Assembly (NCBI GenBank): GCA_025357915.1
Contig: JANYLH010000037.1
Location: 1 to 35,523 of the forward strand
Length of the DNA: 35,523 nt
Source of the DNA: Gammaproteobacteria bacterium
GTDB taxonomy: Bacteria > Pseudomonadota > Gammaproteobacteria > Steroidobacterales > Steroidobacteraceae
Direction of reading: 5' to 3'
In this document: positions 1 through 35,065 of the stretch, in pieces
How positions within the stretch are numbered: the first letter of the stretch is position 1
How the letters are laid out: every line of letters begins with the position of its first letter
The notes under the pieces: model-generated
Seen by the model: only the letters and a program-made list of their open reading frames with translations
Told to the model about the DNA's origin: nothing
Database searches by the model: none
Translations under genes and position numbers: made by a program

Positions 1-1044
1 CCCAGCTGGCAGATCGTCACGCACGTCAGCGCGCTGAAGAAGAGCGGCGACTTTGCCACGCTGGATATCGGTCCCGAAAGTGTCTTCGTCATTCGTGACC
101 GCGAAGGCGCGATCCGCGGGTTCCACAATGTCTGCCGGCATCGCGGTGCCCGCCTGGTCGATGGCCAGGGCACCTGCCCCACCTCGGTCACCTGCCCCTA
201 TCATGGCTGGTCGTACCGGCACGACGGCACGCTGATGGGTATGCCGGTGCGCGAGAGTTTCCCGGACCTCGATCGTGCGCAAAACGGCTTGCGTCCGATC
301 AAGGTGGACGTAGCCTTCGGGTTCGTGTTCGTCGCGTTGAGTGGCAATCCGCAGCCGGTCAGGGAAATGTGGGGTGCGCTGGGCGAAGAGCTGGCGCCGT
401 ACCGCTTCGAAGAGATGGAGGCGCTCACGCCGATCACCGTTGAGCACTGGAATGTCGACTGGAAGATCGTGATGGACAATTACCTGGAGTCGTACCACGT
501 GCCGATCGGACACCCGGGCCTCAACCGAATGTTCACTCCCGACTACGAAGACCAGAAGGGCGTTCCGGGTGTGGCGCGCGGCACCGGCTGGTTTCGAGAA
601 CAGCTGTCGCCCAAATGGTCGGAGCGCACCTACCAGAAAATGATCGGCGGCATCACCCAGCACCTGCCGGAGCCGAACCGCCGCTGCTGGCGCTTCTACA
701 GCATGCTGCCCAACCTCGGGATCGACGTCACGCCAGACCAGATGGATTTCTTCCAGATCCTGCCCAATGGTCCGGGGAAGGCCATCATCCGCGGCGCCTT
801 GTACGGGCTGCCGGATACGCGCCGGGAGATGCGCATCGCGCGGTTCCTGAGCGATCGGATCAACCGCCAGACCAACCGCGAAGACACCTGGCTTTGCGAG
901 CGCGTGCAGCGCGGCCTGCAGTCGAGCAGCTACGTGCCCGGGCGCCTCTCGACGCTGGAGCGCTGGATGCTCGAGTTCCACGAGCTGCTGCGCGAGCGCA
1001 TCCCGGAAGTCCGGCTGCCGTCGGCGCCGGCACGCTTTGCCTAG
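1..1044 (+). CDS. Rieske non-heme iron oxygenase, alpha subunit (5' partial), likely quaternary-amine type
   Basis: The reading frame is open from base 1, so the start lies upstream; 347 residues are visible. The Rieske [2Fe-2S] motif is C-x-H (bases 133-141), a 17-residue spacer, then C-x2-H (193-204, in CPYHGW). The mononuclear iron site is in NYLESYHVPIGH (478-513), giving two histidines four residues apart. A Glu (487-489) sits where most ring-hydroxylating oxygenases have the bridging Asp. Carnitine monooxygenase CntA is known to use Glu there, so a quaternary-amine substrate is plausible. With its carnitine and sarcosine neighbours, glycine betaine demethylation (GbcA-like) or carnitine oxygenation are the best guesses. 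No reductase partner is visible. It is the first visible gene of a plus-strand operon. The family is certain, the substrate is inferred. Confidence 0.88.
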   Translation, partial: PSWQIVTHVSALKKSGDFATLDIGPESVFVIRDREGAIRGFHNVCRHRGARLVDGQGTCPTSVTCPYHGWSYRHDGTLMGMPVRESFPDLDRAQNGLRPIKVDVAFGFVFVALSGNPQPVREMWGALGEELAPYRFEEMEALTPITVEHWNVDWKIVMDNYLESYHVPIGHPGLNRMFTPDYEDQKGVPGVARGTGWFREQLSPKWSERTYQKMIGGITQHLPEPNRRCWRFYSMLPNLGIDVTPDQMDFFQILPNGPGKAIIRGALYGLPDTRREMRIARFLSDRINRQTNREDTWLCERVQRGLQSSSYVPGRLSTLERWMLEFHELLRERIPEVRLPSAPARFA

Positions 1045-1103
1045 GGACTGACCCGCCCCTGGCGCAATGGCTTATTTATTTCGAACTCGATAACATCCTG
1101 GAC

Positions 1104-1580
1104 GTGCAGGCCCTGAAGATCTACTCCACGGCGGTCGAACCCGAGTGGATCGACTATAACGGACACCTGCGCGACGGGTATTACGGGCTGGTGATGAGCC
1201 TCGCCTGCGATGCACTCATGGACCACCTGGGCCTCGGCGAGCCTTATCGCCGCGAGACGGGCTGTACGCTGTACACGCTCGAGCAGCACCTGCATTTTCT
1301 GCACGAGGTCAAGGACAGCGAGCGGATCGATGTGCGGGTGCGCATCCTTGCCGCCGATCGCAAGCGCATGCACGCCGCCTTCGATTTTTACTGCGCGCGC
1401 TATGCCGACCCGGTGGCAACAGGAGAGCTCATGCTGTTGCACGTGCGCCAGGGCGAGAGCGTGACGTCCGCTCCTTTCCCGGCCCCGATCCTTGCGGCTA
1501 TCGAGACGCTCATGGCGGTAACCGCCGCGATGGATCCGCCCGGACCGGGCTCGCGGCGCATCGAACTGCGGGCGCGCTAG
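1104..1580 (+). CDS. Hotdog-fold acyl-CoA thioesterase, betainyl-CoA thioesterase-like
   Basis: About 158 residues, of 4-hydroxybenzoyl-CoA thioesterase type. The key motif is PEWIDYNGHLRDGYY near the N-terminus, whose Asp corresponds to the catalytic Asp of this family. The same PEWIDYNGH block occurs in the thioesterase domain fused to carnitine dehydrogenase at 6281-7762, so the two are paralogues. Known betainyl-CoA thioesterases (CdhB type) release glycine betaine after 3-dehydrocarnitine cleavage; here carnitinyl-CoA is an alternative substrate. The start is taken as GTG 1104, because the in-frame sequence upstream runs into the Rieske gene and offers no better start. No strong ribosome site is seen. 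The stop is followed with no gap by the next gene, so the two are probably translated together. Confidence 0.82.
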   Translation: MQALKIYSTAVEPEWIDYNGHLRDGYYGLVMSLACDALMDHLGLGEPYRRETGCTLYTLEQHLHFLHEVKDSERIDVRVRILAADRKRMHAAFDFYCARYADPVATGELMLLHVRQGESVTSAPFPAPILAAIETLMAVTAAMDPPGPGSRRIELRAR

Positions 1581-3677
1581 GTGGCCGAGCCCACAGCAAC
1601 GGGCCTCGGCGAGGCGGCGATCCGTCGCCTGCTGCGGCCCCGGAGCATCGCGTTGATCGGCGGCGGCTGGACCGACGCGGTGGCCGCCGGCAACGAGGCG
1701 ATTGGCTATCGCGGACAGATCTGGCGCGTGAACCCCAACCGTGATTCCACGGCCCACTGCACCTACTATCGTTCCGTCGATGAACTGCCCGGTTCGCCAG
1801 ACCAGGCGTTCATCGCGGTGCCCGCGCGTGAAGCTGTCGGCGTGGCCGCCGCCCTGGAGCGGCGCGGCGCCGGCGGGTTCGTGTGTTTCGCGTCGGGTTT
1901 CGCCGAGCTCGGGACCGACGCGGGCCGCGCGTTGACAGCATCACTGGTCGAGAGCGCACCTACCGTGCCCTTCTTTGGGCCCAACTGCTATGGCATCGTC
2001 AATTTCTTTGATCGCTGCGCGCTGCTGCCGGACCAGGTCGTGGGCCCGCCGCTCGAGCGCGGCGTGGCGCTGATCTGCCAGAGTGGCACCATCGGCCTGA
2101 CCCTGACCTTCAATGGCCGCAGTGTGCCCATCGGCTATCTGTTCACGGTCGGCAACCAGACCCGGCTGGCAGTCGAAGACCTCATTGAGATGCTCTGCGG
2201 CGACGAACGCGTCAGCGCCTTCGGCCTGTATGTCGAGGGCATCAAGGATCCTGGCCGCTTTGCGCAGGCCGCCCGGCACGCCCGGGCGGCCGGCAAGCCG
2301 ATTGCCCTGGTCAAGGCCGGCCGCACCGAGGTGGCGGCGCGCACTGCGCAAAGCCATACCGGCGCCCTGACCGGCACCGATGCCGTGTTCGACGCCTTCT
2401 GTCACCAGGCAGGCATCGCCCGCTGCGAAACCCTGAGCACGCTGTGCGAAACGCTGAAGGTGCTGCATGCGGGTGGCCCACTACCAGGACGGCGCGTGCT
2501 GGTCATGGGTTTTTCGGGCGGCGATATCGCGATGACAGCCGATGTGGCCCGCCACACGGGCCTGAGCTTTCCGGCATTCAGTCCGCAACTGACCGGACAG
2601 TTGCGCGAACTGCTGGGTGAGCGCGTGACGATCGGCAACCCCTTCGACCTGCACACCTATGCCTGGTTCGACCTGCCCCGCCTGCGCACGCTGTTCGACA
2701 GCACGCTGAGCTGCGGCCTGGACGCCGTGGCACTCATGCTCGATTGCCCGCCAGAAACCGCGGACACGACAGCGTTTACGAATGTGATTGGGGAATTCTC
2801 CAGCGCGGCCTCGGCGCCCGGCGCTTCGCGCGCTGCCCTGCTCGCATCGCTCCCAGAGACGATTCCCGCCTCGGTACGCGCTGACTGCCTGGCGAGTGGC
2901 GTCGTGCCCTTGCAGGGCCAGCGCGAAGCATTGGAAGCACTCGATCTGGCCGGTGCCGTGGGCGAGGCCTGGCGGAGCGATGCGAGCGTTGCGTTGCTCC
3001 GGCCCGCTGCAACGGCCGCCGTGTTGCGCACGCTGTCTGAGTTCGAGGCGAAGGCCGCACTGGCCCGGTTCGGGATCGCGGTTCCGCGCTCGCTCCGGGT
3101 GCCGGTTGCCGAAGCCGTGGCCACGGCGGCGAGGCTGCAGTTTCCGGTAGTGATGAAGGCGGCCGGGGATGTCATCGCCCACAAGTCCGACATCGGCGGC
3201 GTGATCCTGAACATCAGGAATCCGGCCGAGGCGGCCGCGGCGGCCATGCGGCTGGCGGCGCTTTCGGGTACCGTGCTGGTCGAGGAGATGATCGTCGATG
3301 GCGTGGCCGAGATCCTCGTGGGCGCGATCGTCGATCCGCAGTTCGGACTCACGCTGGTGGTGGGCGCCGGCGGCGTGCTGACCGAGTTGCTGCACGACAC
3401 GGTAAGCCTGCTGCCGCCGTTTACGCGCCCGAGCGTGCAGGCCGCCCTTGAACGGCTCAACGTGTACCGGCTGCTCGGCGGGTTCCGCGGGAAACCGGCG
3501 GGCGATCTGCCGGCGCTCGTCGCTGCCATCCTCGCGGTGGGCCGCTATGCCGAAGCAAATCTCGACGTGCTGGCGGAACTCGACGTGAACCCGATCATTG
3601 TCCGGCCCGCCGGCGCCGGCGTGGTGGCGGTCGATGCCCTGATACGAATTGCCAAGGAGAGCTTGAGTCATGGCTAA
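1581..3677 (+). CDS. Acyl-CoA synthetase (NDP-forming), fused alpha-beta type
   Basis: 698 residues, starting at GTG directly after the previous stop. The order is a CoA-binding Rossmann domain (about 13-110, with SIALIGGG), succinyl-CoA-ligase-like domains carrying SHTGALTGTD near residue 260 (the phospho-histidine motif of NDP-forming acyl-CoA synthetases), then a C-terminal ATP-grasp domain from about residue 485 with HKSDIGGV, the second phosphate-relay histidine. There is no GNAT acetyltransferase domain. The family makes acyl-CoA plus ADP and phosphate from acid, CoA and ATP. Next to a CaiD homologue it likely activates gamma-butyrobetaine, crotonobetaine or carnitine, the job of AMP-forming CaiC in E. 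coli. The substrate is inferred from context only. Confidence 0.85.
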   Translation: MAEPTATGLGEAAIRRLLRPRSIALIGGGWTDAVAAGNEAIGYRGQIWRVNPNRDSTAHCTYYRSVDELPGSPDQAFIAVPAREAVGVAAALERRGAGGFVCFASGFAELGTDAGRALTASLVESAPTVPFFGPNCYGIVNFFDRCALLPDQVVGPPLERGVALICQSGTIGLTLTFNGRSVPIGYLFTVGNQTRLAVEDLIEMLCGDERVSAFGLYVEGIKDPGRFAQAARHARAAGKPIALVKAGRTEVAARTAQSHTGALTGTDAVFDAFCHQAGIARCETLSTLCETLKVLHAGGPLPGRRVLVMGFSGGDIAMTADVARHTGLSFPAFSPQLTGQLRELLGERVTIGNPFDLHTYAWFDLPRLRTLFDSTLSCGLDAVALMLDCPPETADTTAFTNVIGEFSSAASAPGASRAALLASLPETIPASVRADCLASGVVPLQGQREALEALDLAGAVGEAWRSDASVALLRPAATAAVLRTLSEFEAKAALARFGIAVPRSLRVPVAEAVATAARLQFPVVMKAAGDVIAHKSDIGGVILNIRNPAEAAAAAMRLAALSGTVLVEEMIVDGVAEILVGAIVDPQFGLTLVVGAGGVLTELLHDTVSLLPPFTRPSVQAALERLNVYRLLGGFRGKPAGDLPALVAAILAVGRYAEANLDVLAELDVNPIIVRPAGAGVVAVDALIRIAKESLSHG

Positions 3678-4446
3678 TGGAATCATCATTACGCGCACTG
3701 GTGCGGTGCTCGAAGTCAGGCTGGATCGCCCGAAGGCGAATGCCATTGATCTGGCGGCCAGTCACGCGCTCAATGACACGTTCAAGACTTTTCGTGACGA
3801 CCCGGAGCTGCGGGTGGCGATCGTGACCGGTACCGGCGAGAAGTTCTTTTCGGCCGGCTGGGATCTGAAAGCCGCCGCCGGCGGCGAGGCTACCGACTCC
3901 GACTGGGGCGAAGGCGGCTTTGGCGGTCTCAACCATCCGCGCAACCTGAACAAACCGGTCATCGCTGCGGTGAACGGCATCGCCTGCGGTGGCGGCTTCG
4001 AGCTCATGCTGGGCGCGGACCTCATCGTCGCCGAGGAACACGCCACCTTTGCGTTGCCCGAAATCAATGTCGCCGTGCTCGCGGACGCCGGCACCATCAA
4101 GTTGCGACGCCGTATCCCCTACCACGTGGCCGTGGAATTCCTGATGACGGGCCGCTGGATGGACGTGGCCGAGGCCAAGCATTGGGGCCTGGTAAACCAC
4201 ATCGTGCCCAAGGGGGGGGCGCTGGCGAAGGCGCGCGAGATCGCGCAACAGCTGGCCGCAGGCCCGCCGCTGCTGTTCCCGGCGATCAAACAGCTGCTCC
4301 GCCACAGTGAGATGGTCAGCGAGCACGAATCTTTCCGGCTATATGACTCGCTCGATCTGGTGCAGCGGGTCGCGCGTTCCGACGACCTCAAGGAAGGCAC
4401 GCGCGCCTTCTCCGAGAAGCGCGCGCCGCGCTGGACGGGCCGCTAG
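3670..4446 (+). CDS. caiD: Crotonobetainyl-CoA hydratase / carnitinyl-CoA dehydratase (CaiD)
   Basis: 258 residues of the crotonase superfamily, strongly resembling E. coli CaiD as I recall it: LDRPKANAID, FRDDPELRVAI, GEKFFSAGWDLKAAA and the C-terminal FSEKRAP..W.GR all match. Glu111 (in GGGFEL) and Glu131 (in FALPE) fall at the same residue numbers as the two active-site glutamates of E. coli CaiD. The enzyme interconverts crotonobetainyl-CoA and carnitinyl-CoA. The start overlaps the end of the ligase gene by 8 bases. An AAGGAG at 3654-3659 lies 10 bases upstream of the ATG. It ends 30 bases before the convergent acyl-CoA dehydrogenase gene. An unusual point is the ADAG stretch (near 136) where E. 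coli has PDSGG. Confidence 0.93.
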   Translation: MANGIIITRTGAVLEVRLDRPKANAIDLAASHALNDTFKTFRDDPELRVAIVTGTGEKFFSAGWDLKAAAGGEATDSDWGEGGFGGLNHPRNLNKPVIAAVNGIACGGGFELMLGADLIVAEEHATFALPEINVAVLADAGTIKLRRRIPYHVAVEFLMTGRWMDVAEAKHWGLVNHIVPKGGALAKAREIAQQLAAGPPLLFPAIKQLLRHSEMVSEHESFRLYDSLDLVQRVARSDDLKEGTRAFSEKRAPRWTGR

Positions 4447-4476
4447 CCACCGGCGGCGCAGCACCCCCGACTCGTC

Positions 4477-5640
4477 TCAACCGCCCAGGGGCCGCAGCAT
4501 GGCCCGCGAGATGATGTGGCGCTGGATCTCGCTGGTGCCGTCCCAGATGCGATCGATCCGGGCGTCGCGCCAGATGCGTTCGAGGGGCAGGTCGGACATC
4601 AACCCCATGCCGCCGTGGATCTGCAGCGCCTCGTCGGCGACCATGGCCAGCATTTCCGTCGCCTTGAGCTTGGCCGCGGCAAAGTCGGAATCAGTGGCAA
4701 TGCCCTGGTCGTGCTTCCACGCGGCCTCGAGCACCATGAGTTCAGCCGCGCGCAGTTCCACTGCCATGTCGGCGAGCTTGAAGCTGACACCCTGGAACTT
4801 GCCGATCGACTGTCCGAACTGCACCCGATCCACGGACCACTGCTTGGCCAGCTCAAGCGCCCGCTCGGCGCGCCCCAGGCAGCAGGCCGCCACCTGCAGC
4901 CGCGTGGCACCGAGCCAGGTGTTGGCCACGTCAAACCCCTTGTCCACCTCGCCCAGAACGGCGTCGGCGCTGACGCGACAATCGCTGAACTTGAGGATGC
5001 AGTTGTTGTAGCCGCGATTAGATACGTTGCGGTAGCCGGGCAACACTTCAAAACCCGGGTGACCCATGTCGACCAGGAACGCCGTCATTTTCTTGCGTGG
5101 TCCGCGCGCTGATTCCTCGACGGCGGTGGCTGCGATCAGGATGACGAAGTCGGCATGGTCGGCATGACTGATGAAATGCTTGGTGCCGTTGATGACGAAA
5201 TCATTGCCGGTGCGCACCGCCGTGGTCTTCATGCCACGCAGGTCGGAGCCGGCCCCCGGTTCGCTCATCGCCAGGCAGTCCGTACGTTCACCGCGCACTG
5301 CCGGCAGCAGGTAGCGCTCGCGCTGCCCGCCCTGGCAGGCGAGCAGGATGTTCGAGGGCCGGCCCACGCAGCAGTAGTGCAGCGCATAGTTGGCCTTGCC
5401 CAGCTCTTTCTCGTAAAGCACCCAGGTGACGGTGTCGAGGCCGCCGCCGCCGACCTCGGTCGGCATGTTGGCCGCATACAGCCCGGCCTCGATCGCCTTG
5501 CGCTTGAGCTCGTTGAGTAGCTCGATGCGCAGGACGCCGGTCTCCTCGACCTCTTTCTCGTGCGGGTAGAGCTCCTGCTCGACGAACTCACGCGTGGTCT
5601 TGACGATGAGCTGTTGTTCTTCGCTCAGTGAAAAATCCAT
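4477..5640 (-). CDS. Acyl-CoA dehydrogenase, probably gamma-butyrobetainyl-CoA / crotonobetainyl-CoA type
   Basis: 387 residues, the usual length of a soluble FAD acyl-CoA dehydrogenase. N-terminal helical domain (MDFSLSEEQ), flavin and substrate motif CLAMSEPGAGSDL near residue 125, C-terminal QIHGGMG and IWDGTSEIQ. The catalytic base position in this last motif, usually Glu in xEGT, is Asp367 here (codon GAC). GGGAGA at 5648-5653 lies 7 bases before the ATG. It is the last gene of the operon with carnitine dehydrogenase and TetR, and faces the caiD operon. With CaiD and the ligase it would oxidise gamma-butyrobetainyl-CoA to crotonobetainyl-CoA, or run in reverse like CaiA. The role is inferred from neighbours; the family is clear. 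Confidence 0.87.
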   Translation of the reverse strand: MDFSLSEEQQLIVKTTREFVEQELYPHEKEVEETGVLRIELLNELKRKAIEAGLYAANMPTEVGGGGLDTVTWVLYEKELGKANYALHYCCVGRPSNILLACQGGQRERYLLPAVRGERTDCLAMSEPGAGSDLRGMKTTAVRTGNDFVINGTKHFISHADHADFVILIAATAVEESARGPRKKMTAFLVDMGHPGFEVLPGYRNVSNRGYNNCILKFSDCRVSADAVLGEVDKGFDVANTWLGATRLQVAACCLGRAERALELAKQWSVDRVQFGQSIGKFQGVSFKLADMAVELRAAELMVLEAAWKHDQGIATDSDFAAAKLKATEMLAMVADEALQIHGGMGLMSDLPLERIWRDARIDRIWDGTSEIQRHIISRAMLRPLGG

Positions 5641-5658: not shown

Positions 5659-6267
5659 TCAGTCGCCGTTCGCGGTTCGTGCCCAGCCCCGGAGCAGTAC
5701 CAGATGGAGCTGCAGCTGGCGGATCTGCTCGCGCGCCGGCCAGTCCCTCGGGCTCGCAACCGCACTGGTCGTAAGGCCATTGATGAAAGTGATGAGCGAG
5801 CGTAACACCTGGGCGCGCACTGCTGGCGGCCAGGCGACCGATTCCGGCCAGTGTTCACCGAGGCACCGCTCGAATAGTTTACGGTATTCGCGATGCACCC
5901 AGGCATTGAGGCGCTTGAGTTCCCGATCGGCCGACAACTGACCCCAGAACGCCGTCCAGAAGGAGCACTCGATACGCCGTTGCGCATCGATCGGCAGGGC
6001 CTCGCTGAGCACGCCGAGCAGATCGGCCTGTGCGCCACCGCCTGGACGTCGCAGGCGCTGGTCCATGCGGCGCAGGATCAGCCGCAGCGCGGCGAGCAGG
6101 ATCTCCCGCTTGGAATCGAAATAGGGCGCCACCATGCCGGTGGTGTAGCCCGCTGTGCGAGCAATGCGTTCGACTGTCGCCTGTGCGAAGCCGCGTTGCG
6201 CGATGGCCTGGCAGGCGGCCAGGGCAATCTCATCGCGCCGTTGCGCGTGATCGACCCGCTTTGGCAA
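5659..6267 (-). CDS. TetR-family regulator, BetI-like
   Basis: 202 residues from a TTG start (6267), read as MPKRVDHAQRRDEI. The N-terminal helix-turn-helix covers about residues 10-56 (RGFAQATVERIARTAGYTTG then PYFDSKREIL), followed by an all-helical ligand domain with FWTAFWGQL, as in BetI-like repressors of betaine genes. No ATG lies in the right place. TTG 6267 is 13 bases past the carnitine dehydrogenase stop and gives a BetI-like N-terminus. It sits between the carnitine dehydrogenase and acyl-CoA dehydrogenase genes on the same strand, so it probably controls its own operon and perhaps the facing one, with a quaternary amine or its CoA ester as ligand. The ligand is inferred. Confidence 0.83.
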   Translation of the reverse strand: MPKRVDHAQRRDEIALAACQAIAQRGFAQATVERIARTAGYTTGMVAPYFDSKREILLAALRLILRRMDQRLRRPGGGAQADLLGVLSEALPIDAQRRIECSFWTAFWGQLSADRELKRLNAWVHREYRKLFERCLGEHWPESVAWPPAVRAQVLRSLITFINGLTTSAVASPRDWPAREQIRQLQLHLVLLRGWARTANGD

Positions 6268-6280
6268 GGCCGGGGGCCTG

Positions 6281-13896: not shown

Positions 13897-13963
13897 TTCC
13901 GGACTCGATGGCGCGTGGTGATTGCGCGCATAATACGCCACGGGTGCTGCAGACACGGGAGCG

Positions 13964-14743: not shown

Positions 14744-14745
14744 CG

Positions 14746-23522: not shown

Positions 23523-23528
23523 GTTGCG

Positions 23529-23533
23529 CCTCC
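23529..23533 (-). promoter_or_regulatory. Ribosome binding site fixing a GTG start
   Basis: GGAGG on the minus strand lies 6 bases before GTG 23522 and decides the start of the NCS1 permease gene. Confidence 0.7.
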
Positions 23534-23588
23534 AGACCGGTCTTATCGTTGTCGCGGCAGTATATGCGGGGCTGGCGTGCGGGACGCG

Positions 23589-26092: not shown

Positions 26093-26691
26093 CCGGATTC
26101 GCTCCTGCACAGATCGGCCACGCTGATGATTGATTGTGGCATGAGCCCGAAGGGTTTCGCCGCCGCGGCGAGCCATTCGCGAAAATGCCGGGCGGTACTC
26201 GCGCTCGTCAGCAGCAGCAGGCCGGAAGGCACCGCCGCAAGAATTACCGGGACCTGCGCCATGATCGTGGCTGCGGCAAGCCCCACCGGAAACAGCAGCG
26301 GGTCGAGATCGAGCCGGCAGCCGCGGGCGAGCACTTCGCGGCTACGCGGGCCGGCCAGGAGCAGCGTCGCCCAGGCCGACGACTGATCGACCGCGGCGCC
26401 CGCTTGCGCGGCGGATTCCCACCAATCCACGCGGTCCGGGCCTGACGCGGCCGGCGCCGGCGGCGCGAGCAGCAGCAACCAGCGGTCCGGGCGGACGCAC
26501 AGCGCCAGGCGGTCCGAGCTGTAGGCGATGCGGCCGAAGGTCGGGAGTTCGATACCACGGCCGCGTGCGATTTCGACAAGTTCACCCGCCCTGCCCGGTC
26601 GCGCGATGATCTCGACCACGCCCATCGTGCATTCGTCGACCCGGACGCCGGGGAGCTCAGCGGGGCTGCCCGGGTATTCAGGACCGGACAC
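26089..26691 (-). CDS. soxG: Sarcosine oxidase, gamma subunit
   Basis: 200 residues from GTG 26691. GGAG 7 bases upstream (26699-26702) supports this start, which overlaps the end of soxA by 14 bases. The protein is the small GcvT-like gamma subunit: VEIIARPG near the N-terminus, DRWLLL, DQSSAWATLLLAGPRSREVLARGC and LLFP in the middle, HFREWL at the end. The order soxB-D-A-G is the standard one for the heterotetrameric enzyme. The gamma subunit has no known catalytic residues and helps assembly. Its stop overlaps the start of the next gene (ATGA). Confidence 0.88.
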   Translation of the reverse strand: MSGPEYPGSPAELPGVRVDECTMGVVEIIARPGRAGELVEIARGRGIELPTFGRIAYSSDRLALCVRPDRWLLLLAPPAPAASGPDRVDWWESAAQAGAAVDQSSAWATLLLAGPRSREVLARGCRLDLDPLLFPVGLAAATIMAQVPVILAAVPSGLLLLTSASTARHFREWLAAAAKPFGLMPQSIISVADLCRSESG

Positions 26692-29632
26692 GTTGGTTCT
26701 CCGGATCGAGCATGTGCGGGCTGAGGATTTCAACCTCCGTGTGTTCATCGTGAATGGGCGAGGTGGCGAGCAGCCGCGTGCCGATGCGCTGTCGCCCCCT
26801 CGCCAGCAGCGCCAGGCCCACCCAACCGTCGAGCGCCACGGCGGGCGTCGAAGAGGTCACATAACCCAGGCTTGCGCCGCGCTCACTCGCGTCGATCAGC
26901 TGGGTACCGTTGCGCAATCGCCCGGCAGGATCGACGGGTCGCAAGCCGACGAGCTGCAGCCGGTCCGGCGCCGCAAGTCCCGGGCGGCCCGCTAGCGTGC
27001 GGCCGATGAAGTCACCGTTTCTCTTCAGCAGGCGCTGAAACCCGAGATCCCCGGCGCTGGTGTTGCCATTGAGTTCGGCCCCGGTCACGTGCCCCTTTTC
27101 AATTCGTAAAGTATTGAGTGCATCGAGGCCATAGGGCCGGATGCCGCAAGGCTTGCCAGCCTCGAGCAGCGCCACCCAGGCCGCTCGTGCAGCGCGCGCG
27201 GGCACGGCGAGCTCGTACGCCAGCTCACCCGAAAAGGAAATGCGGAATACGCGGCCCGCGATGCCGCCGATTCGCGCCTCGGCCACGGCCATGAACGGAA
27301 ACGCGTCAGCGCAGAGGTCCGCAGCGGAAACCACGGCTGCGACCACCTCACGCGCACGCGGCCCGGCGACGGCGAACTGCGCCCAGTGCTCGCTGACATC
27401 CGTGAGCACCACATCGAACTGCGGGCAAGTTGCCTGCAGGTGAAACTCCATGTGTTCGAGCACCGCAGCGCTGTTGGCCGTGGTGGTCGTGACCAGGAAA
27501 TGCTGCGGGCCGAGGCGCGAGGTCGTGCCGTCATCGAGCAGCATCCCGTCTTCGCGCAGCATGATGCCGTAGCGCGCCCGGCCGACGGGGAGTGTGGAGA
27601 ACGTATTCGCGTAGATGAAATCGAGGAACCGCGCGGCATCCGGCCCCTGCACGTCGATCTTGCCCAGGGTTGAAACATCGGTAATGCCCACGGCGCGGCG
27701 GACGTTGCCGGCCTCGGCGAGCACGGGTTCCCAGCCGCCCTGGCGCGCGTAGACGAGCGGCCGGAGCCACAGCCCGACCGGGACGAAGGTCGCTCCCGCC
27801 GATTCGTGCCAGTCGTGCAGGGGCAGGCGGCGCTTTGGCTTGAAGTGCTGGCCCGTCTCGCCGCCGGCCAGCGCGGCCAGCGGAACCGGTTGCGAGTACG
27901 GGCGCGGCCTTGACAGACCCACCGTGGCCAGCGGCATGCCGCGCGCCTCGGCGAGCACGGCGCTGCCAACCAGGCCGCCACTGCGCCCCTGGTCGGTGCC
28001 CATGCCGTGGGTGGTGTAGCGTTTCATGTGCTCGACATGCTCATAGCCCTCGCGCGAGGCGAGCCGCACGTCCTCTGCCGTCACATCGTTCTGCAGATCC
28101 ACGAAGGCCTTGCCGCGGCAGCGCACTTCCCATAGCGCGCTGATCGGCGTGGCCTCGGGATCAGGCGGCAGTTCCGCTTCAGCATCCGCATCGGCACCCG
28201 CAACGCGCACGGCGCAGTCCAGTTGCGCGGCGATTACACGTGCGGCCGCCCGACCGTCATGCGCCGCCGCCGCGAGACCGCAGTGGCCGCGTGCGGCACC
28301 CGCTGCCTGGCCCAGGTCGGGCGAAAGCTCTGGCACGAACCCGGCGATCGACTCCTCCCAGCGCAAGGCGGCGCCCAGCTGGCTGGCCAGCGCGGTCGCG
28401 GGCGAATATCCGCCGGACATGAGCAGACAATCGGCTTCAAGCTTGTGCCGCTGGCCGCCTGCGCGAGCGGCCCATCCGAGCCCGCGAACCTCATGGCGAC
28501 CGTAGACTTTCTCGACGACGGCTCCGGCGTGGACTTCGATGCCCATGTCCCGGGCACGGTCGGCCGCAAGGGAGCGCGGCCGCGAGTCGATGACGCCAGC
28601 GCAGCAGATGCCGGCTGCCGTGAGCGCATAAACCGATTCGTAGGCTTCATCATTGTTGAGGAAAAAGGCCGGGCGACGCCCAACCGCAACGCCGTAGCGG
28701 CGCAGGTACGCAAGCGCGGCGCCGGCCAGCATGACTCCCGGCCGATCATTGCCCGGAAAAGCGATCAGCCGCTCGTGTGCACCATTGGCGAACAGCACGC
28801 GCCGCGCCCGAATGACGCGCAAGCGCTCGCGCATGCCGCCAAACGCCGCGGATTCCGCGGGGTCGAGGGTCTGGATGGCGGCATAAACACCGTGTCCGTA
28901 AGCGCCGCTCACCGTGGTCCCGGGCAGGCGCCGTACGGCGGCGGTACGCGCGAGTTGCGCGCACACCGACTCGCGCCAGCGGGTCCAGCGGGCATCGAGC
29001 AGCGTGCCTCCGCCCAGGACGGTGTCCTGATCGGCCAACAGGACCCGCAACCCGGTGGCGCCGAGGACCTGCGCGGCCGCCAACCCTGCGGCGCCGGCGC
29101 CGACTACGAGTACGTCGGCGTGATCGTGCACACTCTCCGCTGGCGTCGCGTGAGCGGGCACAATGGCATCCAGCCGCCCGAGTCCGGCAGCGCGCCGGAT
29201 CAGGGGCTCGTATACACGTTCCCATGCCCAGCCGGGTGCCATGAAAGTCTTGTAGTAAAAACCGGCCGGCAGAAAGCGCGCCATCAGGTTGTTGATCGCC
29301 AGTACATCGACTCTGAGCGAGGGCCGGCGATTCTGGCTTTCTGTTGCCAGGCCTTGGAATAAAGCGAGCGTCGTGGCGAGTTGATTGGGCTCGCGCCCGT
29401 GAGCTCCAATGACATCGACCAGAGCGCAGGGCTCGTCCGGCCCCGCCGTCACGATGCCCCGCGGCCGGTGGTACTTGAAGCTCCGCCCGACGAGCCGTAC
29501 GCCGTTGGCGAGCAGCGCCGAGGCAAGCGTATCGCCGGAAAAGCCCTGCATGCGGCGCCCATCGAAACTGAATTGGACGGATCGCGTCGCGTCGACTCCC
29601 CAACCGCCCACAATGCGTGCCGGGCCACGCAT
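26678..29632 (-). CDS. soxA: Sarcosine oxidase, alpha subunit
   Basis: 984 residues, the normal size. N-terminal ferredoxin-like domain (VQFSFDGRRMQGFSGDTLASALLANG and the KYHRPRG motif), an NAD-binding domain (VLVVGAGAAGLAAAQVLG near 175-192), then C-terminal GcvT-type folate domains (LGKIDVQGPDAARFLDFIYAN, ELNGNTSAGDLGF). In the complex it binds NAD+ and tetrahydrofolate and receives the methylene from sarcosine oxidation as 5,10-methylene-tetrahydrofolate. The ATG shares one base with the soxD stop (TGATG), and soxG starts inside its 3' end. The tight packing implies coupled translation of the subunits. Confidence 0.94.
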   Translation of the reverse strand: MRGPARIVGGWGVDATRSVQFSFDGRRMQGFSGDTLASALLANGVRLVGRSFKYHRPRGIVTAGPDEPCALVDVIGAHGREPNQLATTLALFQGLATESQNRRPSLRVDVLAINNLMARFLPAGFYYKTFMAPGWAWERVYEPLIRRAAGLGRLDAIVPAHATPAESVHDHADVLVVGAGAAGLAAAQVLGATGLRVLLADQDTVLGGGTLLDARWTRWRESVCAQLARTAAVRRLPGTTVSGAYGHGVYAAIQTLDPAESAAFGGMRERLRVIRARRVLFANGAHERLIAFPGNDRPGVMLAGAALAYLRRYGVAVGRRPAFFLNNDEAYESVYALTAAGICCAGVIDSRPRSLAADRARDMGIEVHAGAVVEKVYGRHEVRGLGWAARAGGQRHKLEADCLLMSGGYSPATALASQLGAALRWEESIAGFVPELSPDLGQAAGAARGHCGLAAAAHDGRAAARVIAAQLDCAVRVAGADADAEAELPPDPEATPISALWEVRCRGKAFVDLQNDVTAEDVRLASREGYEHVEHMKRYTTHGMGTDQGRSGGLVGSAVLAEARGMPLATVGLSRPRPYSQPVPLAALAGGETGQHFKPKRRLPLHDWHESAGATFVPVGLWLRPLVYARQGGWEPVLAEAGNVRRAVGITDVSTLGKIDVQGPDAARFLDFIYANTFSTLPVGRARYGIMLREDGMLLDDGTTSRLGPQHFLVTTTTANSAAVLEHMEFHLQATCPQFDVVLTDVSEHWAQFAVAGPRAREVVAAVVSAADLCADAFPFMAVAEARIGGIAGRVFRISFSGELAYELAVPARAARAAWVALLEAGKPCGIRPYGLDALNTLRIEKGHVTGAELNGNTSAGDLGFQRLLKRNGDFIGRTLAGRPGLAAPDRLQLVGLRPVDPAGRLRNGTQLIDASERGASLGYVTSSTPAVALDGWVGLALLARGRQRIGTRLLATSPIHDEHTEVEILSPHMLDPENQRVRS

Positions 29633-29916
29633 CAGCGCGCGGCTGCCGGCCGCGCTGACAACGCCTCGGCGCTGTCGCGGACCGAGCGGATTTCGTGCGT
29701 CAGCGTATGACGCTCGATCTCAAGCAACCGTCGACAGCCGCCGGTGTGCAGCCACCACTCGAGATGCCAATCGCGGCGATTGTCGCGTTCGTAAACGTAG
29801 CTAAAAAATGCGTCGACTCCGCCATCGCCTGCCGGACGGATTGCCGTGGCATCGCCCCGATAACGGAATTCGATCTCGTCGCGCAGACCGCACCAGGGAC
29901 AGGGGATCCTGAGCAT
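29632..29916 (-). CDS. soxD: Sarcosine oxidase, delta subunit
   Basis: 94 residues from ATG 29916, the usual length. IPCPWCGLRDEIEF at the N-terminus gives the first two zinc-binding Cys, and GGCRRLLEIERHT further on the third; WHLEWWLHT is typical of SoxD. The subunit binds zinc and has a structural role. It sits between soxB (14 bases upstream) and soxA (one shared base). In-frame sequence upstream to 30183 lies inside soxB and is not used. Confidence 0.92.
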   Translation of the reverse strand: MLRIPCPWCGLRDEIEFRYRGDATAIRPAGDGGVDAFFSYVYERDNRRDWHLEWWLHTGGCRRLLEIERHTLTHEIRSVRDSAEALSARPAAAR

Positions 29917-29930
29917 GCAACGGCCGCCGG

Positions 29931-31238
29931 TCAGTGCGCGTAGGGAAACGGGCCGAGGCCGCGCTCGTCGACCGTGCGTCCGGCCGCGAAACGTTCGAGC
30001 GCCAGGTGCGCGGCCAGCGGGTGCGGTGTACCGCACGCGATCAGGTGCGCCGTCGCCATGCCGCCCGCCGGTATCGCCTTGAAGCCGCCGTAGCACCAGC
30101 CGCCATTGAGGATCAGTCCGTCGAGTGGCGTACGCGATATCAGCGGCGAACCGTCCATGCTCATGTCGACCACGCCGCCCCATTGCCGCAACACCCTGAG
30201 CCGCGCCAGAGCGGGCATCAGCGTCAGCGCCGCTGCGGCCACCTCTTCCGCCATCGGCAGCGTGCCACGCTGGGCGTAGCTGTTGTAGCCGTCTATGGCG
30301 CCGCCGTACACCAGGCCACCGCGATCCGACTGGCTGACGTAGAAATGCCCGGCCCCGTAGGTGAGCACAACGTCCAGCAGGGGCTTGACGCTTTCCGTCA
30401 CGAAGGCCTGCAGTACATGGCTCTCGATTGGCAAGCGGAGCCCCGCCATCGCCGCCAGGTGCGAGGAGTGGCCGGCCACGGCAAGGCAGACCGTATCCGC
30501 GGCAATGGCGCCACGCGTGGTCTCGACGCCGATCACGCGCTTGCCATCACGGTGGATACCCGTGACCTCGCGGTTCTCGATGATATCGACGCCCGCTGCC
30601 GACGCCGCCCGCGCGTAACCCCAGGCCACGGCGTCATGTCGCACCGTGCCGCCACGGCGTTGCAGGAACCCACCCAGCACGGGGTAGCGGCCATTGTCGA
30701 GATCGACGAGCGGCACCAGCGCCCGCACCGCCCCACGGCTCACCGCTTCGGCGTCGACACCCAGGAGCCGCATCTGGTTGGCGCGGCGCGTGAACAGATC
30801 GCGTTGCGCCTCGGTGTGAAACAGGTTGAGCGTACCGCGCTGGCTGACCATGGCGTTGAAATTCAGCCGCCGCTCGAGGCCTGCCCACAGCCTGAGCGAG
30901 TAATCGTAGAAGCGCACGTTCTCGGGGCGGAAATAGTTGGAGCGGATGATGGTGGTGTTGCGCCCGACGTTGCCCAGTCCGATTGGCCCGCGTTCCACGA
31001 CTGCGACATCCGTGATGCCGAACTCGCTGGCCAGGTAATACGCCGTGGCCAGGCCCTGCCCGCCGCCGCCGACCACGACCACGCGGTAGCGCGGTCGAGG
31101 CGTCGCCTTCGCCCAGGCCTGGGGCCAGCCGCGCTGGCCGGTGAGGCCCTCGAGAAACAGGCGCCAGCCCGAATAGCGGCCGGCGGACTGGCGCGCGTCA
31201 CGCGCAGGTTGCAGGCTGGAGGTCGCGGTTGCGTTCAT
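29931..31238 (-). CDS. soxB: Sarcosine oxidase, beta subunit
   Basis: 435 residues. A FAD-binding domain begins after a 50-residue lead (VVVVGGGGQGLATAYYLA, 53-70, then VERGPIGLGNVGRNTTIIRSNY). RGGTVRHDAVAWG contains His201, at the place where the beta subunit carries covalent FMN. WGGVVDMSMDGSPLI and LNGGWCYGGFKAIPAGG close the C-terminal part. The subunit oxidises sarcosine to glycine and a methylene passed to folate in SoxA, with oxygen as acceptor. It is the first gene of the soxBDAG plus dimethylglycine dehydrogenase operon and diverges from the betaine importer genes. The folate- and formaldehyde-handling genes often found beside sox operons are not in this window. Confidence 0.94.
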   Translation of the reverse strand: MNATATSSLQPARDARQSAGRYSGWRLFLEGLTGQRGWPQAWAKATPRPRYRVVVVGGGGQGLATAYYLASEFGITDVAVVERGPIGLGNVGRNTTIIRSNYFRPENVRFYDYSLRLWAGLERRLNFNAMVSQRGTLNLFHTEAQRDLFTRRANQMRLLGVDAEAVSRGAVRALVPLVDLDNGRYPVLGGFLQRRGGTVRHDAVAWGYARAASAAGVDIIENREVTGIHRDGKRVIGVETTRGAIAADTVCLAVAGHSSHLAAMAGLRLPIESHVLQAFVTESVKPLLDVVLTYGAGHFYVSQSDRGGLVYGGAIDGYNSYAQRGTLPMAEEVAAAALTLMPALARLRVLRQWGGVVDMSMDGSPLISRTPLDGLILNGGWCYGGFKAIPAGGMATAHLIACGTPHPLAAHLALERFAAGRTVDERGLGPFPYAH

Positions 31239-31323: not shown

Positions 31324-32235
31324 ATGAGCCGCATACTGAAGTGGTTACTGGCAAGCGTCGGCCTGGCATTCTTTGCCGTCGCGCCGCTCAACGCCGCTGT
31401 CGTCGTCTCCTCAAAGCTGTCGAGCGAGTCGGCGATGATCGGCCAGATGATCCGCCTGATGCTGGACGCGCGCGGCGTCCCGACCGTCGACCGCATGACG
31501 CTCGGCGCGACCCCGGTGGTGCGCAAGGCGCTGCTTGAGGGCGAGATCGACCTTTATATCGAGTACACGGGCAACGCTGGCTTCTTCTTTAACGTGGCGA
31601 ACGATCCTGCCTGGAAGGACCTGCAGCAAGGCTACGCGCTGGGTGCCCGGCTCGACTATGCCGCCAACCGGATCGTGTGGCTCACGCCCGCGAACGCCAG
31701 CAATGCCTGGGCACTGGCCGTGCGGAGCGACGTGGCCGCAAGCAATCACCTGAAGACCATGAGCGACTTCGCGCGCTGGGTCAACGCTGGCGGCCCTGTG
31801 GTTCTGGCTTGCTCGGCCGAATTCGCCAACGCCGGTACGCTGCGCTCCCTCGAGAAGACCTATGGCTTCAGGATGCGTCCCAACCAGCTGATCGTGCTCG
31901 CGGGCGGTGAGACCTCGGCAACGATTGGCGCCGCGGCGGCCCGCACCAACGACATCAACACCGCCATGGTGTACGGGACGGACGGCGGCATCGTCGCGGC
32001 GCAGCTCGTATTGCTGGAGGATGACCGGCACAACCAGCCCATCTACGCGCCGGTCCCCATCGTGCGCGAAGCCGTGCTCAGGGCGTATCCGCAATTGACG
32101 GGCATCATCAAGCCCTTGATGGCGAGTCTGGACAGCGACACGCTGCGCAGGCTCAACGCGCGGGTGCAGATCGACGGCGAATCGGCGCAGGTTGTCGCCG
32201 CGGATTACCTGCGCGCGCAGGGATTCGTGCAATAG
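31324..32235 (+). CDS. yehZ: Betaine/choline-type ABC importer, substrate-binding protein (YehZ/OsmF-like)
   Basis: 303 residues, close to E. coli YehZ in length. The N-terminal signal peptide ends near LNAAVVV. Characteristic blocks are ATPVVRKALLEGEIDLYIEYTGN, split across the ligand cleft, FFFNVANDPAWKDLQQGY, RIVWLTPA, LAGGETSATIGAAA and QPIYAPVPIVREAVLRAYPQ, all with counterparts in E. coli YehZ. The protein is exported to the periplasm and would capture a quaternary amine such as glycine betaine or carnitine. It opens a four-gene importer operon with no spacing to the next gene. The ligand is not fixed by the sequence. No strong ribosome site precedes its ATG. Confidence 0.9.
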   Translation: MSRILKWLLASVGLAFFAVAPLNAAVVVSSKLSSESAMIGQMIRLMLDARGVPTVDRMTLGATPVVRKALLEGEIDLYIEYTGNAGFFFNVANDPAWKDLQQGYALGARLDYAANRIVWLTPANASNAWALAVRSDVAASNHLKTMSDFARWVNAGGPVVLACSAEFANAGTLRSLEKTYGFRMRPNQLIVLAGGETSATIGAAAARTNDINTAMVYGTDGGIVAAQLVLLEDDRHNQPIYAPVPIVREAVLRAYPQLTGIIKPLMASLDSDTLRRLNARVQIDGESAQVVAADYLRAQGFVQ

Positions 32236-33393
32236 ATGAGGCGAGCCGCCCGCATCGATCGGCTCGGCGTGCTGCTCACGGTGGCCGGAGCCGCCGCGCT
32301 CGCCTTCCTGCCGTTCGTTGTGTTCAAGCACAACCGCATCCTGCCCGGCGACCCGCTCGGCCTGTTTGCTGCCCTGCCCGCGCCGGCCGCGTACGCCTGC
32401 GTGGCGACGCTGATTCTGGCCGTCGTCACCGCGCTTGGCGTTGGGCATGCGAAAACCCGCTTTATCGTGGCGCTGGTCGGCATCGCGGTGGTGGCTTTCG
32501 CGATCGCCATGGCCGGCACGGCGCTCACGCCTCCGGGAAACCGCGTGGTGCGCGTGGCCCCGGGCGCCGGCGGCTGGCTGTTGCTGGCGACCCTGGTGTT
32601 GATGGCGACCGATGCCCTTACGCGGCTGCGCCCGCGCCCGCTCACGCGCGTACTGCTGCTGGTCCTGTGCGCCGTCGCTGCCGGTTTCGCGCTCGGCCAC
32701 GGCGTCTTTGACCAACTGTCGATCATGCGCGAGTACGCCGTCAATGCCGGGCGCTTTGCGCGCGAACTGCACGTGCACCTGTGGCTGGCGCTCGGCTCGC
32801 TCGGCGCGGCCCTCATCATCGCCCTGCCGCTCGGGATCCTCTGCCACCGCGTGCCGCGGCTGCGTGCGGGCACGCTCGGCGCGCTGAACATGATCCAGAC
32901 GATTCCCTCGATAGCGCTGTTCGGGATCCTCATGGCGCCGCTCGCGGCGCTCGCCGCCGCGGTCCCGCTGGCTGCGCAATTGGGCATTCGCGGCATCGGC
33001 GCCGCGCCGGCGGTTATTGCCCTGTTCCTGTACTCGCTGCTGCCGATCGTCGCCAACACGGTCGTCGGGTTGAAGCGGGTCTCATCGGCCGCAGTCGAAG
33101 CCGCGCGGGGCATGGGCATGACTCCCGGACAGGTCCTGGCCCGGATCGAACTCCCGCTCGCCCTGCCGGTGATCCTCTCGGGCGTGCGCATCGTGCTGGT
33201 GCAGAACATCGGCATGGTGACCATAGCGGCGCTGATCGGCGCCGGCGGGCTCGGCGCTTTCGTCTTCCAGGGGATCGGGCAGACCGCGATCGACCTGGTG
33301 CTGCTGGGCGCGATTCCCACGGTGGCGATGGCATTCGCCGCTTCGGTGCTGCTGGACGCGCTGGTGGAAACCCTGGATCGGATACCGCCATGA
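32236..33393 (+). CDS. yehY: Betaine-type ABC importer, large permease (YehY-like)
   Basis: 385 residues, the length of E. coli YehY as I recall it. It has an extra set of N-terminal membrane helices (about 10-160) ahead of the standard binding-protein-dependent permease domain (about 175-375). The EAA-type loop appears as AVEAARGMGMTPGQVLARIELPLALPVILSG. It begins directly after the yehZ stop, and its own stop overlaps the ATPase start (ATGA). It forms the membrane channel with the smaller permease at 34325. Confidence 0.9.
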   Translation: MRRAARIDRLGVLLTVAGAAALAFLPFVVFKHNRILPGDPLGLFAALPAPAAYACVATLILAVVTALGVGHAKTRFIVALVGIAVVAFAIAMAGTALTPPGNRVVRVAPGAGGWLLLATLVLMATDALTRLRPRPLTRVLLLVLCAVAAGFALGHGVFDQLSIMREYAVNAGRFARELHVHLWLALGSLGAALIIALPLGILCHRVPRLRAGTLGALNMIQTIPSIALFGILMAPLAALAAAVPLAAQLGIRGIGAAPAVIALFLYSLLPIVANTVVGLKRVSSAAVEAARGMGMTPGQVLARIELPLALPVILSGVRIVLVQNIGMVTIAALIGAGGLGAFVFQGIGQTAIDLVLLGAIPTVAMAFAASVLLDALVETLDRIPP

Positions 33394-34325
33394 TCAGAAT
33401 CGAGAACCTGAGTAAGCAGTACGGGGCGACCACCGTAGTCGACGCCGTGTCGATGGAGGTCGAACGCAACACGATCACGGTGATCGTTGGTACTTCGGGA
33501 TCTGGCAAATCGACGCTGCTGCGCATGATCAACCGCCTGGTTGAGCCCAGCAGCGGCCGCGTATTGATCGATGGCAAGGACACGCGCAGCGAACCCGCGC
33601 ACCTGCTGCGACGCCGGATCGGCTACGCGATCCAGGGACACGGGCTGTTCCCGCATCGCACCGTGGCGCAGAACATCGCGACCGTGCCCCACCTGCTCGG
33701 CTGGTCCGAGCTGCGCATCGGCGCGCGGGTCGCGGAACTGCTGCGAGCCTTCCAGCTCGACCCGGCCGAGTACGCGGGCAAGTACCCGCACCAGCTCTCG
33801 GGGGGACAGCAACAGCGTGTCGGTGTGGCGCGCGCCCTGGCCGCCGAGCCATCCGTGCTGCTGATGGATGAGCCTTTCGGCGCGCTCGACCCGATCATCC
33901 GCAGCAAGGCGCAGGACGACCTGCTCGATATCCAACGCCGCTTCGGCACAACCATCGTGCTGGTGACGCACGACATAGACGAAGCCTTCCGGCTCGGTCA
34001 GCGCGTCGCGGTGATGAGCCAGGGCCGCGTGCTGCAGTACGATCGTCCCGCAGCGCTCCTCACGCGGCCCGCTGATTCCCTGGTTGCGCGGATGACCGGC
34101 CTCGCCGATCGGGCGCTGCGGCTCCTGTCGCTGACGACTGCGGGACAGATCGCCACACCGGGCAGTGCCGGCGGTCCGACGATCGCCGCCTCCGCTTCGC
34201 TGCGCGATGCGCTGTCGGAAATTCTCTGGCACGGCGCCGAGTCGGCCCAGGTCGTGGATGAGCGCGGCGCGCCGCGAGGTTCGCTCACCGTGGCGGCCAT
34301 ACTCGCGCATGGCAGGCCGGAGTGA
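33390..34325 (+). CDS. yehX: Betaine-type ABC importer, ATPase (YehX/OsmV-like)
   Basis: 311 residues. Walker A GTSGSGKST (34-42), Q-loop at Gln82, signature LSGGQQQR (136-143), Walker B VLLMDEP (156-162) and switch His in LVTHDIDEAF are complete. The stretch from about 255 to 308 (SASLRDALSEIL then AQVVDERGAPRG) resembles a single degenerate CBS unit, which in related betaine transporters senses osmolarity. The ATG overlaps the permease stop by four bases, and the next permease starts in its TGATG. It is a soluble subunit bound to the inner face of the membrane. Confidence 0.92.
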   Translation: MIRIENLSKQYGATTVVDAVSMEVERNTITVIVGTSGSGKSTLLRMINRLVEPSSGRVLIDGKDTRSEPAHLLRRRIGYAIQGHGLFPHRTVAQNIATVPHLLGWSELRIGARVAELLRAFQLDPAEYAGKYPHQLSGGQQQRVGVARALAAEPSVLLMDEPFGALDPIIRSKAQDDLLDIQRRFGTTIVLVTHDIDEAFRLGQRVAVMSQGRVLQYDRPAALLTRPADSLVARMTGLADRALRLLSLTTAGQIATPGSAGGPTIAASASLRDALSEILWHGAESAQVVDERGAPRGSLTVAAILAHGRPE

Positions 34326-35065
34326 TGCCGCGCGCCGCCACGCTCCTCCGTGTAGCCGCGCTGGGCCTGCTGGCGGCCTTCCTGCTGCGGCCGCAGGCCT
34401 TCGCAGCGCTGTTCGCACCGCTGACGCAATACGGCGCGCCGCCGATCTACGATCAGGGCAACCTGCTGACGCTCACGCTGGCGCACCTCGCAACGGTGTG
34501 CGCCGCCGCGGTCGCCAGCACCATCGTGGCGGTCGGGCTCGGCATCCTGGTCACGCGCCAAAGCGGCGCCGAGTTCCTGCCGCTCTCGCGGGCGTTGGTG
34601 AATATCGGCCAGACCTTTCCTCCGGTGGCGGTACTCGCCGTTGCGGTGCCGCTGGTCGGGTTCGGCGTGAAACCGACGCTGATCGCGCTGTTCGCCTATG
34701 GCCTGCTGCCGATCTTCGAGAACACGATCGCCGGGCTGCAGGGTTGCACGAGTGAACTGCTCGAGGCCGCCAGCGGCATGGGCATGAGCGCGCGCCAGCG
34801 CCTGCTTGAGGTGGAACTGCCGATGGCGATGCCACTGATCCTGGAAGGTGTGCGATTATCCCTGGTCATCAGCGTGGGTACCGCGACGATCGGTTCCACG
34901 GTGGCCGCCAGGGGGCTCGGCGAGGTGATCATCGCCGGGCTCCTGTCCAGCAATACGGCGTTCATCCTGCAAGGCGGTCTGGTAACCGGCCTGATGGCCG
35001 TTCTCCTCTATGATGCCATGGGCCTGGTGGAGCGGCGGGTGTGCCGGGCCGCTCATGTTGCCTAG
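34325..35065 (+). CDS. yehW: Betaine-type ABC importer, small permease (YehW-like)
   Basis: 246 residues from ATG 34325 (GTG 34322 is possible). A binding-protein-dependent permease with about six membrane helices and the ATPase-contact loop LEAASGMGMSARQRLLEVELPMAMP. Its size matches E. coli YehW, and the gene order Z-Y-X-W is the same as in E. coli. It overlaps the ATPase stop by one base. Its own end overlaps the downstream desaturase-like gene by 11 bases if that gene starts at 35055, hinting at coupled expression. Confidence 0.9.
   Translation: MPRAATLLRVAALGLLAAFLLRPQAFAALFAPLTQYGAPPIYDQGNLLTLTLAHLATVCAAAVASTIVAVGLGILVTRQSGAEFLPLSRALVNIGQTFPPVAVLAVAVPLVGFGVKPTLIALFAYGLLPIFENTIAGLQGCTSELLEAASGMGMSARQRLLEVELPMAMPLILEGVRLSLVISVGTATIGSTVAARGLGEVIIAGLLSSNTAFILQGGLVTGLMAVLLYDAMGLVERRVCRAAHVA

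Follow-up and report, generated by a model that had tools for sequence, protein, structure and literature searches.

How would a bacterium that carries the genes for taking gamma-butyrobetaine and carnitine down to glycine manage without the BKACE gene, which acts on 3-dehydrocarnitine, at its usual place in the operon? The question is raised by a contig of an uncultured Gammaproteobacteria bacterium (assembly GCA_025357915.1, contig JANYLH010000037.1, positions 1 to 35,523), which was analyzed at its full length of 35,523 nucleotides and is called the window here; it is the entire contig C72 of a genome of 2,668,664 bases in 87 contigs (93% completeness). We read the window as a quaternary-amine island of a Steroidobacteraceae-like bacterium that has lost BKACE from its operon, the step being supplied by an enzyme encoded on another contig (C53); glycine betaine would then be demethylated by a cobalamin-dependent set on a third contig (C42), and dimethylglycine dehydrogenase (DMGDH)-like proteins and the sarcosine oxidase SoxBDAG would complete the route to glycine. 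We put the probability of this reading at roughly 0.68, and we infer every substrate and flux in it from sequence.

Gene set of the upper route

Gene families were called by Pfam and NCBIfam profile searches of the window proteins. All families named in an initial annotation, made from the bare sequence, were recovered with matches far beyond chance; that annotation lacked a free acyl-CoA thioesterase and a methyltransferase of the MTTB superfamily, both described below. Because most window proteins miss the curated NCBIfam cutoffs, narrowly or widely, the gene names used here hold at the family level only.

On the forward strand, a Rieske oxygenase gene with its 5' end cut by the contig end (1-1044; Pfam Rieske and Ring_hydroxyl_A) is followed by the free 4HBT_2 acyl-CoA thioesterase (1104-1580; Pfam 4HBT_2, GTG start taken from the alignment of relatives), an NDP-forming acyl-CoA ligase proposed to be a gamma-butyrobetainyl-CoA synthetase (1581-3677; Succ_CoA_lig and ATP-grasp_5) and a CaiD-like hydratase (3670-4446; ECH_1), whose best NCBIfam model is crotonobetainyl-CoA hydratase (293 bits, cutoff 500). 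The reverse strand then carries an acyl-CoA dehydrogenase (ACDH, 4477-5640; Pfam), the proposed gamma-butyrobetainyl-CoA dehydrogenase, which recurs beside carnitine 3-dehydrogenase (CDH), a TetR/BetI-type regulator (5659-6300, start approximate; TetR_N and TetR_C_6) and CDH itself, fused to a proposed betainyl-CoA thioesterase (6281-7762; 574 bits, cutoff 592). The motif IWDGTSEIQ, whose Asp sits where we take the catalytic Glu to lie, occurs in 20 of 45 ACDH matches and IWEGTSEIQ in nine, the other 16 being without a pattern match. A putative TetR-type operator sequence before BKACE (TATCG-N4-CGATA) has 12 matches in the window versus 8.3 expected, and no regulon was drawn from it.

Gene-set counts come from 80 fetched CDH loci, 30 of them close (CDH identity at least 65%) and 50 others, and are lower bounds because loci cut by contig ends were counted in. 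Ligase, CaiD and ACDH accompany CDH in 14/30 close and 18/50 other loci (32/80 together), and the complete four-gene set is seen also in Sinorhizobium and Ensifer loci. ACDH stands beside CDH in 24 of the 30 close loci and 21 of the 50 others, and the free thioesterase is found in 17 of the close loci and in none of the others. With CDH-thioesterase, ligase, ACDH and CaiD together, the window holds an established kind of gene set, and the upper route from gamma-butyrobetaine through carnitine to 3-dehydrocarnitine, as first proposed for this DNA, thus corresponds to genes conserved across CDH loci; judging from the gene families, activation would be followed by dehydrogenation and then hydration. 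Placing the whole gene list on one island also proved sound, since one relative (G004) has all of it, BKACE included, on a single 39-kb contig. In a scan of named genomes, the CDH-thioesterase match of highest identity was L063 (90% over the best segment), from the Gammaproteobacteria metagenome-assembled genome (MAG) fen_1191; four loci from MAGs labelled Steroidobacteraceae (L039, L052, L060 and L062) follow at 70-74%.

Carnitine degradation through a CDH-thioesterase and BKACE is described for Pseudomonas aeruginosa and Sinorhizobium meliloti (PMC12482172, in excerpt). The window resembles that route in the fusion of CDH to a thioesterase, and Rhizobiales loci in having ACDH, NDP-forming ligase and CaiD beside CDH. 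Unlike the P. aeruginosa and S. meliloti route, it has an extra, free thioesterase, and its BKACE lies off-site on another contig.

Probable loss of BKACE from the operon

BKACE had been expected just upstream of base 1 or elsewhere. The former location does not hold, as the conserved place of the gene is inside the window, directly before the thioesterase, and there the open reading frame (ORF) is absent. Gene order is Rieske, BKACE, thioesterase, ligase in L063/G004, G002 and G012, and in G013 BKACE precedes the thioesterase close to the end of a contig. An alignment to G002, G004 and G013 shows that the window retains the leader (1065-1097, forward strand; 94% identical to the stretch preceding BKACE in L063), passes through a junction at 1098-1103 and continues with the thioesterase start, the whole BKACE ORF being absent between Rieske and thioesterase genes. 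All fetched loci together (51 rows) yield 30 distinct thioesterase sequences. In each of the 28 that enter the count (28 of 28), BKACE immediately precedes the free thioesterase gene, the two being separated by -7 to 57 bases. The count leaves out the window's own sequence (three rows: L008, L209 and L226) and that of L234, where the fetched stretch was truncated within the gene; L124/L174 cover this locus intact, BKACE included. Fourteen other genomes from the genus were compared: nine gave some match to the junction lacking BKACE, and none reproduced it.

The only BKACE of the genome, at C53:73427-74284, is unlinked to the window, and its contig ends 0.5 kb downstream of it. A genome devoid of BKACE, which the initial annotation had named as an outcome that would speak against the route, is therefore not what we find. 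As an upstream neighbor of base 1 this copy was rejected: the next C53 frame resembles, by eye, a CadC-type DNA-binding regulator and not a Rieske gene. In the tree the C53 protein forms a lone branch inside the clade of CDH-linked BKACEs (98/83), and of the 62 columns that are near-invariant among 66 CDH-adjacent BKACEs it matches 61. The corresponding figure is 39-46 for four distant BKACEs and 56-58 for three from the same order; one of the distant four, L087, belongs to a CDH locus and had been left out of the 66 for its long branch. Both its grouping with CDH-adjacent BKACEs and its conserved residues point to a dehydrocarnitine-cleaving enzyme. Since 61 of the 62 conserved positions are kept, this divergent copy probably completes the route in trans, the operon BKACE having probably been displaced by it. 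One 0.9-kb stretch of C53 is 83-85% identical to G002, G004 and G013, so the contig is not an obvious contaminant.

The gap could instead be an assembly artefact that conceals a normal operon, as might be expected of a draft in 87 contigs when the gene is present in all 28 other distinct loci; moreover, the window opens within the Rieske gene, and G013 has two contigs that end at this site. An artefact is nevertheless improbable, as the gap coincides almost exactly with a single ORF, both neighboring genes remain open, the window holds a single copy of the leader, and an operon-type BKACE occurs nowhere else in the genome. The in-place loss would also fit a decaying island, in which carnitine would halt at 3-dehydrocarnitine and the remaining genes would serve other betaines. 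We consider this very unlikely: CDH, thioesterase, ligase, CaiD and ACDH are all open frames 78-92% identical to those of G002 and G004 (with the exception of the G004 CDH-thioesterase, whose match is split into two segments with only 65% identity in the second), and the C53 BKACE retains its conserved positions.

Cobalamin-dependent set and lower route

Contig C42 carries in one cluster an MTTB, an MtgC-like corrinoid protein, an MtgD-like pterin-binding methyltransferase (359 bits, over the cutoff of 259) and a RACo-type activator (RamA), along with a MetF-like protein (methylenetetrahydrofolate reductase), DUF1638 and a GbdR-like regulator. The same contig encodes a GMC oxidoreductase (choline-dehydrogenase-like), an aldehyde dehydrogenase and SoxB/D/A. 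In Ruegeria pomeroyi, MtgBCD, the same gene set, carries out glycine betaine demethylation (PMC12478193, in excerpt), and its likeness to C42 extends to MTTB and the MtgC-, MtgD-, DUF1638-, RamA- and MetF-like genes. Unlike R. pomeroyi, the bacterium studied here is a gammaproteobacterium that, by the names of its relatives, lives outside the sea, and its genome also encodes a MetH-like protein of 1279 amino acids. Across 60 genomes, own included, standalone MtgC (identity at least 57%) was found in 22 of 23 MTTB-positive versus one of 37 MTTB-negative genomes, or by genus in 14/14 versus 1/26; the copies in G004 and G019 are fragments, and the two genomes that break the pattern are G012 (83% complete) and G031. 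With MtgB/C/D, RamA and MetF all encoded on C42, the bacterium probably demethylates glycine betaine through cobalamin chemistry and not with the Rieske enzyme.

Downstream of this step, the window offers two DMGDH-like flavoproteins, DMGDH-1 (15534-17945; DAO and GCV_T, the latter a GcvT-type folate domain) and DMGDH-2 (23678-26092; DAO and GCV_T), and a heterotetrameric sarcosine oxidase with SoxG, SoxA, SoxD and SoxB in one operon (26089-31238; NCBIfam matches), all on the reverse strand. Among the four subunits only SoxB passes its cutoff (620 bits, cutoff 529), SoxA reaching 1116 (cutoff 1164), SoxD 89 (cutoff 117) and SoxG 62 (cutoff 144). On the forward strand, YehZ/OsmF, YehY, YehX and YehW form a betaine-type ABC importer (31324-35065; OsmF/YehZ at 31324-32235, 396 bits, cutoff 400).

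Rieske oxygenase and its module

The initial annotation had assigned the first demethylation of glycine betaine to the Rieske oxygenase. Its placement in the family stood, while the role fared poorly: GbcA is the best NCBIfam model, but the window protein scores 146 bits and the full-length G002 ortholog 160 bits against a cutoff of 670, and the genome encodes a full MtgBCD-type set on another contig. The best PDB matches include the demethylase 4qup, which we take to be Stc2, and the carnitine monooxygenase 6y9c. Like the GbcAB/CntAB demethylases, the protein falls in the same broad group; unlike them, it remains far under the GbcA cutoff and has no reductase beside its gene in G002 or G004. 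The GbcB/CntB-type reductase sought just upstream of base 1 was not found in these two relatives, where the Rieske gene is preceded by an aminotransferase, two amine oxidases, a GcvT-like protein and an ABC ATPase; the upstream DNA of the window itself is unassembled. Nor was a dedicated one found elsewhere in the genome, whose only two FAD_binding_6 genes were rejected as candidates, one resembling a PyrK-type subunit (by eye) and the other being DmmA-like and adjacent to an HODM gene. A DmmA-like reductase, an HODM alpha-like protein and a GcvT-like protein lie together at L013:8238-11970 (G000:C64), a probable dimethylamine monooxygenase-type cluster of the same genome.

Orthologs of the Rieske protein (identity at least 61%) were present in 15 of 79 genomes searched, and for 13 of these (all except the window and G012) the 5' side is visible. 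A class III aminotransferase lies divergently beside the Rieske gene in 13 of 13, followed by two amine oxidases, a GcvT-like protein and a PotA-like ATPase in ten; of the remaining three, G013 and G014 run into a contig end and G036 has only the aminotransferase and the ATPase. Several of the orthologs are kilobases away from BKACE. None of six fetched Rieske paralogs at 40-46% identity had the aminotransferase in flanks of up to 1.5 kb. This module, often near carnitine genes and yet a separate unit, is probably the one to which the window gene belongs, and its substrate is perhaps a methylated amine or trimethyllysine. The best match to the aminotransferase module in the own genome is at 34%, so the module is not in the own assembly. 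It was seen at L138:11070-17981 and in L233, L237, L240, L244 and L245.

A second methyltransferase in the island

The MTTB-superfamily methyltransferase of the window (17948-19504, reverse strand; PF06253, 651 bits, over cutoff), which lacks pyrrolysine and has PDB relatives 4yyc, 2qne and 9yce, adjoins DMGDH-1. Orthologs at 70% identity or more are present in 13 of 60 genomes, own included, one of them partial; in the tree they group with the window protein, separate from the C42-type MTTBs. A loop R-x-G-G-x-L-x-x-[SA]-K is common to 2qne (the solved betaine enzyme), 4yyc and the C42-type MTTBs, and it aligns with the X residue of MttB, presumably pyrrolysine. The window MTTB has RSSNATAAN instead and its clade RSSNATA or close variants. 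All 13 genomes with the window-type protein also hold a C42-type MTTB with the betaine-type loop, which in the aligned G014 protein reads RCGGNLCGSK, and the C42 MTTB scores 759 bits to 4yyc versus 356 for the window MTTB. The separate clade, the loop, the coexisting C42-type protein and the lower score make the window MTTB look like a second enzyme. The loop may govern substrate choice, although G056 speaks against this: its MtgC, MtgD and RamA genes adjoin an MTTB with an SSN-type loop, and no C42-type MTTB is among the listed matches of that genome, so a protein without the betaine-type loop may still act on glycine betaine. In G026 an ortholog of the window MTTB is itself near MtgC and DUF1638.

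Candidate substrates of the window MTTB are glycine betaine, or carnitine and gamma-butyrobetaine. MTTB and DMGDH-1 lie within 10 kb of CDH in six of the 30 close loci (L049 with an MTTB fragment only), and on two Leisingera plasmids some 10 kb separate CDH and BKACE from a 51%-identical MTTB with a DMGDH-like gene. The Mesorhizobium pair has no carnitine genes around it in the stretch seen. Eubacterium limosum MtcB and MtyB are carnitine and gamma-butyrobetaine methyltransferases (PMC8604678, in excerpt), and like them, as far as their description goes, the window MTTB belongs to the non-pyrrolysine MTTB superfamily; unlike those of the anaerobe, it is paired with an oxidative DMGDH-like flavoprotein. 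Compared with R. pomeroyi MtgB, it differs in its clade, its position inside a carnitine island and its lack of the betaine-type loop. Among the titles and abstracts seen in a partial collection of open-access literature, none described a carnitine-linked MTTB-DMGDH pair in aerobic bacteria.

Two more pairs of MTTB and DMGDH-like genes exist in the own genome (L151 and L152, at G000:C38 and C23), one beside SoxB/SoxA, and the genome has five MTTB matches in total. At the Stordalen Mire palsa, Proteobacteria express non-pyrrolysine mttB homologs, and glycine betaine and choline were detected (PMC10805028, in excerpt). Names of relatives such as fen_1191 suggest a similar setting.

Proposed route and competing readings

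Gamma-butyrobetaine would be activated by the NDP-forming ligase, dehydrogenated and then hydrated by CaiD, after which a thioesterase would free L-carnitine from its CoA form and CDH would convert it to 3-dehydrocarnitine. The BKACE step to betainyl-CoA is most likely performed by the unlinked C53 enzyme, and the thioesterase domain fused to CDH would release glycine betaine. This in turn is most likely demethylated via MtgB/MtgC/MtgD/RamA/MetF2 of C42, with the DMGDH-like proteins and SoxBDAG oxidizing the remaining methyl groups to yield glycine. The MTTB-DMGDH pair of the island may be a second methyltransferase unit and would share the same MtgC; a published model has several MTTB members share one corrinoid protein (PMC12478193, in excerpt). 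One lineage, apparently of soil and peat bacteria, would combine an almost complete gamma-butyrobetaine/carnitine route with all the genes of an MtgBCD-type set, and so widen the range of a route known from marine bacteria. With the operon BKACE cleanly missing and a divergent one encoded elsewhere, displacement in trans can be tested here, and the carnitine-linked MTTB-DMGDH is a concrete protein pair with an assayable substrate.

Several observations weigh against this route. Within the 10 kb seen around the C53 BKACE no island reference protein had a match, and the enzyme is just 51-56% identical to the cluster BKACEs of the family. The absence of BKACE from the window could come from an assembly error. 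C42 and C53 are tied to the window by binning alone, and the C42 MtgC-like protein reaches 204 bits against an MtgC model cutoff of 370. Finally, in the island regions searched, G002 has neither DMGDH-1, DMGDH-2 nor SoxBDAG and G013 has no DMGDH-1 beside its MTTB, so the lower route is not constant.

Other assignments of the demethylation steps can be set against the cobalamin route. The first demethylation of glycine betaine might fall to the Rieske oxygenase, working with a reductase not seen here, and the rest to the DMGDH-like proteins and SoxBDAG; the Rieske gene is directly upstream of BKACE, thioesterase and ligase in G002, G004 and G012, and of thioesterase, ligase and CaiD in the window, and its best profile and PDB matches fit. 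Its low GbcA score, the aminotransferase beside every ortholog with a visible 5' side, the distance of several orthologs from BKACE, the two unsuitable FAD_binding_6 genes and the presence of the cobalamin set make this unlikely. It is conceivable, though doubtful, that the MTTB-DMGDH pair demethylates carnitine or gamma-butyrobetaine itself, in a norcarnitine-type reaction parallel to the BKACE route. The RSSNATA loop, the betaine-type MTTB in 13 of 13 genomes and the proximity to CDH, on the Leisingera plasmids as well, favor such a substrate; the G056 arrangement and clade members away from carnitine genes, as in Mesorhizobium, oppose it, as does the finding that, among 40 genomes, all ten with this MTTB also have BKACE. 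A bolder version, which we hold to be rather unlikely, is that the pair constitutes an aerobic cobalamin system for intact carnitine or gamma-butyrobetaine that shares the sole MtgC and could have relaxed the need for BKACE, leading to its in-place loss.

Other genes of the window

Besides the catabolic genes, the window encodes an Ig-like-repeat (Big_3_5; Pfam) surface-type protein (7874-10192, reverse strand), a cysteine-desulfurase-like protein, a class II aldolase and a PEP-mutase-like protein. The Ig-like gene sits between CDH and the cysteine-desulfurase-like gene; these two are only about 160-190 bp apart in L063 and G002, so it looks like a lineage-specific insertion. At 12868-15516, the genes for an oxidoreductase, the class II aldolase and the PEP-mutase-like protein are all kept in L063, the latter two also in G002 and G013. 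Family matches further identified a LysR regulator (19497-20462, reverse strand), which often adjoins this type of MTTB, an aldehyde dehydrogenase (20596-22101, forward strand) and an NCS1-family transporter (22098-23564, reverse strand). At the far end (35010-35522, forward strand) begins an open frame that is truncated where the contig stops and resembles, by eye, a membrane fatty-acid desaturase.

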